Made by a program: the position numbers and the translations under genes | Shown: positions 259 to 2,060 of the stretch, piece after piece | Layout: the number at the start of each line of letters is the position of its first letter | How positions within the stretch are numbered: the first letter of the stretch is position 1 | Source: an uncultured Psychroflexus sp. | Lineage (GTDB): Bacteria; Bacteroidota; Bacteroidia; Flavobacteriales; Flavobacteriaceae | Length of the DNA stretch: 46,760 nucleotides | Reading direction: 5' to 3' | Assembly: GCA_913062845.1 (NCBI GenBank) | Contig: CAJXVZ010000018.1 | Coordinates: forward strand, 1 to 46,760 | Notes under the pieces: generated by a model | What the model saw: only the letters and a program-made list of their open reading frames with translations | Databases searched by the model: none | What the model was told of the DNA's origin: nothing

Positions 259-287
259 TGAAGCCGATGTGAACTTTGCCACTTTGA
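259..287 (+). repeat. Imperfect direct repeat, copy 1 (left of fic)
   Basis: A 29-bp stretch beginning TGAAGCCGATGTGAACT matches positions 2325-2353 in the same orientation at 26 of 29 bases. The two copies bracket the Fic gene and its operator region. They could be a dispersed repeat or the ends of an acquired segment. No target-site duplication or integrase was seen. Confidence 0.5.
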
Positions 288-475: not shown

Positions 476-1600
476 CTACTTGAATAGATTTAAATATTTT
501 TTAAATGTATACGCCTTGCCTCTCTGACCTCCTGTTATTTCGTTAAGTATTCCTATTTCTAATAAATCGTTAATTAAGTTATAAGATGTTCTGTTTGATA
601 CTCCGGTTATTTCAACAATTTTTTTAGCATCGACTATTGGCCGTTTTAGCAAATATTCTAATATTTTTTGTGCGTTATTTGCTCTGGGGCCGAGGGTTTG
701 GATACTTAATTCTGAATGTTTTTTCAATTTCAATATTTCATCAAAGGTGTTAACAGCTTTTTTGGCTGTCTCTATTACACCAACTAAAAAAAATTTGAGC
801 CATTGTTTAATATCATCGTGAGTCCTAACACGCATTAAATTGTCATAATACGTGGTCTTGTTATTTTCAAAAAAATCTGATAAGTACAACACCGGTTTTT
901 TAAGAATATTCTTGTTTACCAGATATAAGGTTATGAGCAATCTACCCACTCGACCATTACCATCTAAAAAAGGATGTATGGTTTTAAATTGATAATGAAT
1001 TATGCCTATTTTGAGTAAGTCAGGGAAATAGAAATCTTGATTATGAGTGAATTTTTCTAAATCGCTCATTAAATCACCTATGCTTGTATGTATGGGCGGA
1101 ATAAAAACAGCATCATTAATAGATGCGCCACCTATCCAGTTCTGACTTTTTCTAAACTCGCCGGGCTGTTTATGTTCTCCTCTAACACCTTGTAGCAGAA
1201 CTTTATGTGTTGCTTTAATCAAGCGGTTGGAAAATGGAATATCGTTAAGCATTTCTATTGCTCTACCCATGGCAGTTATATAATTTTGTACCTCTTCCCA
1301 GTCATCTCTTTTTTCATGGCTTACATCCTCTTTATCTAGTAGAGCTTCTTCCATATTGGTCTTTGTACCTTCTATTTTACTGCTTTGCGTGGCTTCTTTA
1401 AGTACATGCATGCTGATGAACAGATCAATATCGGGGATATACTCGCTATACATGTCTAATCTTCCTAAATGTCTGTCTGCCTGAGATAATAACGCCAAGA
1501 GTTCCATATCGTTAAGCGACCATTGTCTGTTTAATAAATTTGGTTGAAAACTCTTATAATAACCTTGATTTACGTAATGTCCTGCTTTAAAATTTTGCAT
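476..1600 (-). CDS. Fic family protein with N-terminal inhibitory motif and C-terminal winged helix
   Basis: This is a Fic-fold enzyme, a family that usually transfers AMP from ATP to hydroxyl side chains of target proteins. The core motif HPFLDGNGRVGR lies at residues 209-220 and is complete (catalytic His209, phosphate-binding DGNGR). An N-terminal SSKIEG motif (73-78) fits the [S/T]xxxE[G/N] inhibitory helix of class II Fic proteins, so the enzyme is probably auto-inhibited. Residues about 305-370 (KILEYLLKRP..VSNRTSYNLINDLLEIGIL..) resemble a winged helix-turn-helix, the usual C-terminal partner in Bacteroidota Fic proteins. At 374 residues it has full family length. It stands alone with no antitoxin gene beside it, and two strong dyads lie just upstream of the ATG. 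Its target and physiological role cannot be read from sequence. Confidence 0.93.
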   Translation of the reverse strand: MQNFKAGHYVNQGYYKSFQPNLLNRQWSLNDMELLALLSQADRHLGRLDMYSEYIPDIDLFISMHVLKEATQSSKIEGTKTNMEEALLDKEDVSHEKRDDWEEVQNYITAMGRAIEMLNDIPFSNRLIKATHKVLLQGVRGEHKQPGEFRKSQNWIGGASINDAVFIPPIHTSIGDLMSDLEKFTHNQDFYFPDLLKIGIIHYQFKTIHPFLDGNGRVGRLLITLYLVNKNILKKPVLYLSDFFENNKTTYYDNLMRVRTHDDIKQWLKFFLVGVIETAKKAVNTFDEILKLKKHSELSIQTLGPRANNAQKILEYLLKRPIVDAKKIVEITGVSNRTSYNLINDLLEIGILNEITGGQRGKAYTFKKYLNLFK

Positions 1601-1632: not shown

Positions 1633-1704
1633 TTATTGCAAAATATCACATTTTTTTGCAATAAGTAAACACTTAATGTAAAATATGTTGAAATTTTACA
1701 TTAA
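1633..1704. promoter_or_regulatory. Two tandem 32-bp dyads upstream of fic (candidate operators)
   Basis: Dyad 1 (1633-1664) has perfect 11-bp arms TTATTGCAAAA and TTTTGCAATAA around a 10-nt centre. Dyad 2 (1673-1704) has perfect arms TTAATGTAAAA and TTTTACATTAA around a 10-nt centre, and its symmetry extends to 14 bp at 1671-1684/1693-1706. The half-sites share the consensus TTAWTGYAAAA. Both dyads are 32 bp long and their centres are 40 bp apart, close to four helical turns. The near edge is 33 bp upstream of the fic ATG. This architecture suits a dimeric DNA-binding protein. The Fic winged helix is an obvious candidate, but that is inference. Confidence 0.7.
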
Positions 1705-2060
1705 GTAAATGGGAAATGCAATTTATGACTAAAAATTATAAACAAATTTTTATATTTTACTTTACGCTGTTTGCCGCCACGGCGGGAAAGTTCAAACAAA
1801 ATATCTTTAGCCAATATCTTTTTATATGTTTTAAATACATGTACCGAGCGCTGAGTGTCCTTTTCCGAAAATTGCAGGCATAACACGTTTCTAAGTCTTT
1901 ATGAGCTTGGCGCAAACCAATTTGAATTTTACAGGGGTCTTGAAGCACTACCATGGTTTACTAAGTATGGTTCTATTGATCTCCTATTATTGCAAATACA
2001 TTTTTTCTATATATAGCCTTTTTGATTTTGATGATTTGCGGGTAAGGGAAAGTCTTTTAA

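Follow-up and report, generated by a model that had tools for sequence, protein, structure and literature searches.

Upstream of a fic gene in an uncultured Psychroflexus sp., two perfect palindromes lie side by side, and the question that this locus raises is whether they form the operator through which the encoded Fic protein controls its own gene. The window, i.e., the whole stretch of DNA analyzed here, comprises 46,760 bp. The initial annotation of this DNA described two 32-bp dyads with perfect 11-bp arms and with centres 40 bp apart in front of fic, and both the positions and the arms proved exact when re-checked. On comparison with related loci, we consider it very probable that the pair of dyads serves as operator for an anti-phage toxin gene that regulates itself; the Fic dimer would bind there cooperatively and thereby repress fic. 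The elements of sequence comparison that bear on this proposal are the dyads themselves, their uniqueness in the genome, an alternating lattice of half-sites, coupled variation between the half-site letters and residue 337 of the protein, and adjacency to a promoter box in many relatives.

Toxic modules controlled by their own products are familiar from phd-doc-like toxin-antitoxin operons, where repression takes place on paired palindromes and the antitoxin is the DNA-binding part. The Fic protein of the window differs from these systems in that the toxin and a predicted DNA-binding domain are joined in one chain. Closer to the present case is CccR of Yersinia pseudotuberculosis, a winged-helix Fic protein reported to bind palindromes in its own promoter and to repress it, with toxic and regulatory activities described as independent (PMC9755527). 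A Fic autorepressor is therefore already known from CccR, and what appears new by comparison is the tie to the SoFic anti-phage family and a different operator geometry. As described in the same paper, the CccR footprint covers a single palindrome whose 10-bp boxes stand 26 bp apart, in contrast to the 11-bp half-sites of the window, which are separated by 10 bp and repeated at 40 bp. CccR is moreover presented there as a T6SS effector with FtsZ as its target.

The dyad proximal to fic (dyad 1, positions 1633..1664, not assigned to a strand) reads TTATTGCAAAA-N10-TTTTGCAATAA, i.e., two inverted half-sites TTATTGCAAAA around a 10-bp spacer, and the distal one (dyad 2, 1673..1704, likewise without strand) reads TTAATGTAAAA-N10-TTTTACATTAA, with two inverted half-sites TTAATGTAAAA and a spacer of the same length. 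The perfect arms of dyad 2 extend to 14 bp (1671-1706), and 32 nt (1601-1632) lie between dyad 1 and the fic ATG. Scored with the class A matrix introduced below, both arms of dyad 1 reach 16.0 and both arms of dyad 2 reach 12.6. A possible degenerate extra half-site, GAAATGCAATT (1713..1723, minus strand), falls at the next lattice position; its score of -0.5 against a threshold of 6 makes it doubtful and it is not counted. Apart from dyads 1 and 2, the window contains no perfect dyad with 11-bp arms and a 10-bp spacer, while windows simulated with a Markov-2 model contain 0.04 such dyads on average and none of 100 had two within 100 bp. The exact pattern (zero mismatches) likewise occurs nowhere else in the 3.37-Mb genome, and a regulon was set aside on this count as the meaning of the dyads. 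A slightly shorter version of the pattern with at most 3 mismatches is found at 24 genome places vs 17 for the reversed control, which amounts to background. In genome G015 (C6), a one-mismatch dyad falls within the reading frame of a gene resembling nnr (by visual judgment of its function), and we regarded it as a chance match.

The fic gene itself (476..1600, minus strand) encodes a 374-aa protein of the SoFic type with a Fic_N region, a Fic domain and a C-terminal winged helix. The initial annotation credited the protein with this winged helix and with an N-terminal inhibitory helix; the winged helix and an N-terminal inhibitory motif are indeed present. The inhibitory motif SSKIEG (residues 73-78; 1367..1384, minus strand) is in the class II position, and the pattern [ST]xxxE[GN] is found at its columns in all 87 of the 87 aligned relatives. 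The catalytic Fic motif HPFLDGNGRVGR (residues 209-220; 941..976, minus strand) is canonical in 85 of these 87 relatives, the departures being L071 and L112. The winged helix is predicted at residues 304-374 (479..691, minus strand); within it, the AlphaFold2 model places the limits of the recognition helix at residues 336-348 (557..595, minus strand), which include Arg337 (codon 590-592, minus strand), the residue that tracks the half-site letters. The mean pLDDT of the model is 86.6, with weakness only at 140-163, and the predicted structure has the SoFic fold including the C-terminal winged helix; its best solved structural relatives are Shewanella SoFic, Mycobacterium marinum Fic, CccR and CbFic2. 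The PADLOC SoFic model matches the protein at 1.5e-120 (400.9 bits, profile positions 5-358 of 361). The score against the NCBIfam equivalog NF046030 (Shewanella-type Fic) is 174.5 bits, far below the cut-off of 550, and by these profile scores the protein is a relative in the wider SoFic family and not a member of that Shewanella-type equivalog. On the 3' side of fic, where an AS1-like small antitoxin gene would lie, only 475 bp of contig are present, with three minus-strand ORFs of 26-59 aa that have no ATG starts.

The close relatives were collected from 8 + 80 loci, giving 88 upstream regions, of which 86 have at least 140 bp (L093 and L101 fell short and were dropped). Near copies (L034, L092 and L103) were excluded from pair counts; L011 (partial) is absent from the protein alignment, L119 gave no ORF and L013 no clear start. 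The 15 class A loci were chosen by eye before the matrix was learned, and half-sites were called at a score threshold of 6. L084, in which no half-site was seen by eye, was kept out of matrix learning and left unscored.

Repetition at a fixed distance is widespread in this set. Among 83 non-redundant close relatives, 61 have direct repeats at 41 bp (shuffle mean 4.2) and 25 have them at 40 bp (shuffle mean 3.0). Counted together, 40/41-bp repeats occur in 79 of the 86 relatives vs 22 of 337 regions that lie upstream of other genes in the same sequence material; the corresponding numbers for a mock distance of 46/47 bp are 3 and 14. A lattice of three half-sites was found in 64/86 close relatives vs 4/337 of the other upstream regions, with 3 among 131 AT-rich controls. 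The half-sites, 2 to 8 per close relative, alternate in orientation about every 20 bp, and in L047 the alternation is unbroken over eight of them. Neighbouring half-sites start 21 bp apart in the plus-minus order (22/24 in class A and 75/93 in class B); in the minus-plus order the distance is 19 bp in class A (19/21) and 20 bp in class B (93/112). Held-out loci gave the same distances, with 16/19 and 64/77 for plus-minus and 11/13 and 73/82 for minus-plus in class A and class B, respectively. The direct-repeat test was failed by seven of the 86 loci (L002, L004, L060, L062, L063, L064 and L086) and the stricter lattice test by 22, and most failing loci still have one dyad.

What the initial annotation treated as two separate dyads is consequently better seen as an array in which half-sites alternate at intervals of about two helical turns; four of these half-sites lie in the window. 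The lattice accompanies fic across Bacteroidota, Pseudomonadota, Thermodesulfobacteriota, Cyanobacteriota and others, in varied gene neighbourhoods, which suggests that this arrangement in front of SoFic-type fic genes is a family trait. Orthologues with the same winged helix and no dyad had been named at the outset as an observation that would speak against an operator. Departures are confined to a few places and tell against a strictly one-to-one link: the upstream region of L084 contains no recognizable half-sites though the protein is closely related, and two Psychroflexus genomes discussed below have the same dyads in front of another gene. Repeated half-sites are also found upstream of L071 and L112, in which the first His or the Asp of the catalytic motif is changed, and this would agree with regulation persisting after catalysis is lost.

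That the dyads arose by chance, or are the relic of a mobile repeat, might be suggested by the AT-richness of the region and by the 28-bp direct repeat on either side of the fic cassette. The probability of such an origin appears almost vanishing, considering that no comparable pair arose in the 100 simulated windows, that the genome holds no other exact copy and that the lattice is conserved in relatives; the comparison with relatives refutes it for practical purposes.

The half-site letters and the protein vary together. Class A (the window and 14 relatives) has the half-site TTATTGYAAA, and residue 337 is R or K in 15/15 loci. In class B1 the half-site is TTATTTAAG and the residue is P or V in 42/42, and in class B2 the half-site is TTATTTTAG and the residue is A or T in 24/25. 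Altogether residue 337 agrees with the half-site class in 81/82 loci, a table that leaves out two ties as well as L084, L093 and L101; the sole exception is L008, in which Lys337 occurs together with a half-site resembling that of class B2. No other position from 304 to 373 carries as much mutual information with half-site class (1.43 bits) as residue 337, located at the beginning of the recognition helix. When the tree is built from residues 1-300, i.e., without the winged helix, six changes are required for half-site class and six for residue 337, and class A is a single clade and represents one event. The switch between B1 and B2 provides three independent pairs on well-supported branches, in which the two changes go in the same direction in 2.7 on average and never in the opposite one; the sign test gives p = 0.25, and three pairs cannot reach significance.

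The arrangement extends beyond the close relatives. In a separate draw of 148 Bacteroidota genomes, 61 match the PADLOC SoFic model at E <= 1e-80. One of the 30 loci returned from this draw is the window; among the 29 others tested, 40/41-bp direct repeats were found in 20 (3 at the mock distance) and the lattice in 17, with varied half-site letters. Where a genome contains two SoFics (nine such genomes were compared), the letters differ between the two in G335 and G340, where both SoFics clearly pass the repeat test, and, as judged by eye, in G278, G329 and G343. Among distant SoFics, 36 of 56 non-redundant upstream regions contain an exact 8-mer repeated at 20-74 bp. The 40-41-bp lattice is not universal, as only 1 of 11 distant plasmid-borne members has a spacing of 40 bp and five others have 30, 31 or 51 bp. 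What these loci have in common is the phase: 50 of 55 locus-distance pairs fall within 1.5 bp of whole helical turns (31% expected), at distances of 30/31, 40-42, 51 and 70-72 bp, and the Rayleigh test gives p about 8e-17 vs 0.36 in 113 control regions, which have no such phase; since related loci are not independent, the p-values for whole turns are upper-end figures.

The pattern is not shared by other Fic families in the genomes searched: none of their 13 genes has the 40/41-bp repeat or the lattice in its upstream region, with the starts of L018, L026 and L027 being doubtful. The proposal of a real cooperative Fic operator finds good support in the comparison on three counts, i.e., the conserved lattice, the letters that track a recognition-helix residue and the lack of such arrays before other Fic families. 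Phage records yielded only distant relatives (22 records, all below 60% identity).

The position of the array relative to the promoter is most readily seen in class B. Of 44 class B loci from Bacteroidota, 35 have a TAnnTTTG box, which we take to be the Bacteroidota -7 element, no more than 70 nt from the start (8% expected from shuffling), and in 26 loci the box begins 4 nt after the last minus half-site. To judge from this arrangement, the last half-site, 4 nt before the -7-like box, is in the position of a repressor site in class B. In class A, including the window, the box is present in only 1/15, and the window's own fic promoter was not located by means of it; the palindromes are present there. 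Among class B2 loci that are unassigned or lie outside Bacteroidota, 9 of 22 have a -35/-10-like pair, TTG-N19-21-TAAAAT, over the dyad, which is a raw, uncontrolled count.

These positions also bear on whether the dyads could act as RNA hairpins, i.e., as an attenuator or a leader structure in the fic mRNA. They do fold as RNA (-7.9 and -8.6 kcal/mol; z-scores -2.9 and -7.0), as any perfect dyad would, but the dyads of class B Bacteroidota precede the promoter box (by 4 nt in 26 loci) and would therefore not be transcribed. Moreover, half-sites that alternate at the same spacing inside a dyad and from one dyad to the next, together with whole-turn distances, are a property of the DNA helix. 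We consider an action as RNA exceedingly improbable and set it aside, the folding notwithstanding, on account of the class B dyads upstream of the promoter box.

Another question is whether the dyads belong to Fic or to some other, unlinked regulator of the host. In two Psychroflexus genomes (G010 and G021), paired class A dyads lie 6 nt upstream of an AlbA_2-HATPase gene, and fic is absent from that place; the four class A half-sites in front of this AlbA_2-HATPase_c_4 gene span 3014-3091 in L188 and 2960-3037 in L187, and a class A Fic was not found in either genome. The class A operator can apparently exist without its Fic, which is what an unlinked regulator would predict. Against this, the zero-mismatch dyad in the window's genome is found only at fic, the lattice travels with fic across phyla and varied neighbourhoods, and a residue in the recognition helix of Fic itself tracks the half-site letters. 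In addition, the operator before the AlbA_2 gene looks captured because the AlbA_2 homologues L190 (48% identity) and L191 (28% identity), the two found in 120 genomes, are without dyads; at G010 and G021 the operator was probably kept while the gene behind it was exchanged. An operator for an unlinked host regulator is in our judgment highly unlikely, and we retain Fic itself as the protein that would bind the array.

The AlbA_2-HATPase gene of G010 and G021 follows an MmeI-type restriction gene, and in L039, L002 and the window the class A fic likewise comes after an MmeI-like gene or its remnant. In the window the remnant is a decayed MmeI-type C-terminus (1820-2053, minus strand) directly upstream of the operator, 41% identical to the L188 MmeI-like protein over residues 799-881 of the latter. 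A link of MmeI or AlbA_2 to the dyads was set aside, given the two AlbA_2 homologues without dyads. Among neighbours searched for 72 of 74 loci upstream and 73 of 76 downstream (near copies left out), HsdS is encoded just upstream of fic in 8/72 and HsdR-type domains just downstream in 8/73. The type I restriction operon, a minority setting only, was therefore dismissed as the general home of fic. Loci in which fic lies within a type I restriction locus include L041, L046, L059, L064, L098 and others (by ORF size; L041 by Pfam). A literature search on mloA/rloA gave nothing useful.

Taken as an operator for the Fic protein, the array rests on a strong case from sequence, and by analogy with CccR the protein is likely an autorepressor. 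We envisage that Fic, presumably a dimer as in its relatives, would occupy one dyad with its two winged helices, one per half-site at a distance of 21 bp (two helical turns), and that adjacent dimers would come into contact over the 8 bp between dyads, which would make binding cooperative and confine it to one face of the helix. Bound Fic would block the fic promoter and keep the toxic enzyme scarce, i.e., by negative autoregulation. For the protein of the window, we infer DNA binding, the dimeric state, repression and the relief of repression from the sequence and its relatives. The DNA-binding helices of CccR are reported to be 70.2 A apart (PMC9755527), which at 3.4 A per bp corresponds to 20.6 bp, close to the half-site spacing of 21 bp, even though the boxes of CccR are wider apart; we regard this as consistency, not proof. 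E. coli Sofic is reported to be toxic on leaky expression (PMC12249575), which gives tight control of fic a reason.

Fic might, on the other hand, bind the array mainly for the control of its enzymatic activity, with DNA as a switch or store of activity, or as an activator, and not to repress its own gene. CbFic2 of Coxiella burnetii, like the Fic of the window a class II Fic with a C-terminal winged helix, is reported to bind DNA and to dimerize; DNA is said to stimulate its AMPylation and to favour the dimer (PMC10628234). Deletion of the C-terminal domain of E. coli Sofic is reported to abolish toxicity (PMC12249575), and arrays of 2 to 8 half-sites often go beyond the need of one repressor dimer. 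However, CbFic2 is reported to have been assayed with random DNA, and the available text describes neither a specific operator nor control of its own gene (PMC10628234); binding may not be sequence-specific in that case, whereas the SoFic half-sites are specific and confined to one promoter. The repressor position of the last half-site in class B and the repression reported for the proven relative CccR (PMC9755527) also weigh against this interpretation, which we regard as unlikely, and autorepression is preferred. The initial annotation further raised a self-contained switch in which AMPylation would alter DNA binding. Such a coupling to ATP or AMPylation state would be a conjecture here; the independence of activities reported for CccR (PMC9755527) stands beside the DNA stimulation of CbFic2 (PMC10628234) and the shifted C-terminal domain described for E. 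coli Sofic (PMC12249575).

The E. coli Sofic paper traces control to AS1, dimerization and the C-terminal domain, and reports that this domain is positioned differently between the apo form and an ATP-bound relative; a word search of its main text returned no "HTH", "transcription" or native operator, "operator" referring to lac operators, and the restraint of SoFic in healthy cells and its triggering by phage are stated there as open (PMC12249575). A 2026 review of AMPylation, in the text available, mentions CccR and not SoFic (PMC12894286). Within the open-access literature, a scope that leaves most subscription papers and all bioRxiv preprints outside, we found no description of arrays before SoFic genes. 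If the C-terminal domain does read an array at its own gene, the control of a widespread SoFic defence gene becomes directly testable, and the arrays constitute natural specificity data in which half-site letters are paired with one recognition-helix residue.

A wider picture can be drawn, which as a whole we consider a tentative and rather doubtful speculation. SoFic proteins might form a one-faced cooperative chain on private arrays with whole-turn half-site spacing, the chain being both the repressor of the gene and a store of parked, restrained toxin. A phage event that lowers occupancy (a change in ATP level, host DNA or transcription) would then free toxin and at the same time raise its synthesis, and lineages would re-letter their arrays via residue 337 and its neighbours, which would prevent cross-talk between SoFics in one cell.

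Several minor observations accompany these results. A 28-bp direct repeat (window 260-287 and 2326-2353, 25/28 identical, 2066 bp apart) flanks fic and its operator. The genome contains no further copy, and allowing up to 3 mismatches did not reveal one in 26 congeners; the repeat is possibly the scar of a cassette insertion. A perfect inverted repeat, CTGCAAGGGTTTCAAACCCTTGCAG, with a 3-bp centre lies at 2380-2404 of the window. Five Fic genes of another family (L022, L023, L024, L029 and L030) have a tight, different dyad around GATAGTATCAAATGATACTATC before the start, which in some members is only partly inside the 120 nt inspected, and upstream of L019, a Fic of a third type, half-sites GAGCCGAAT / ATCGGCTC are repeated; self-operators may perhaps be a habit of several HTH-tailed Fic families.
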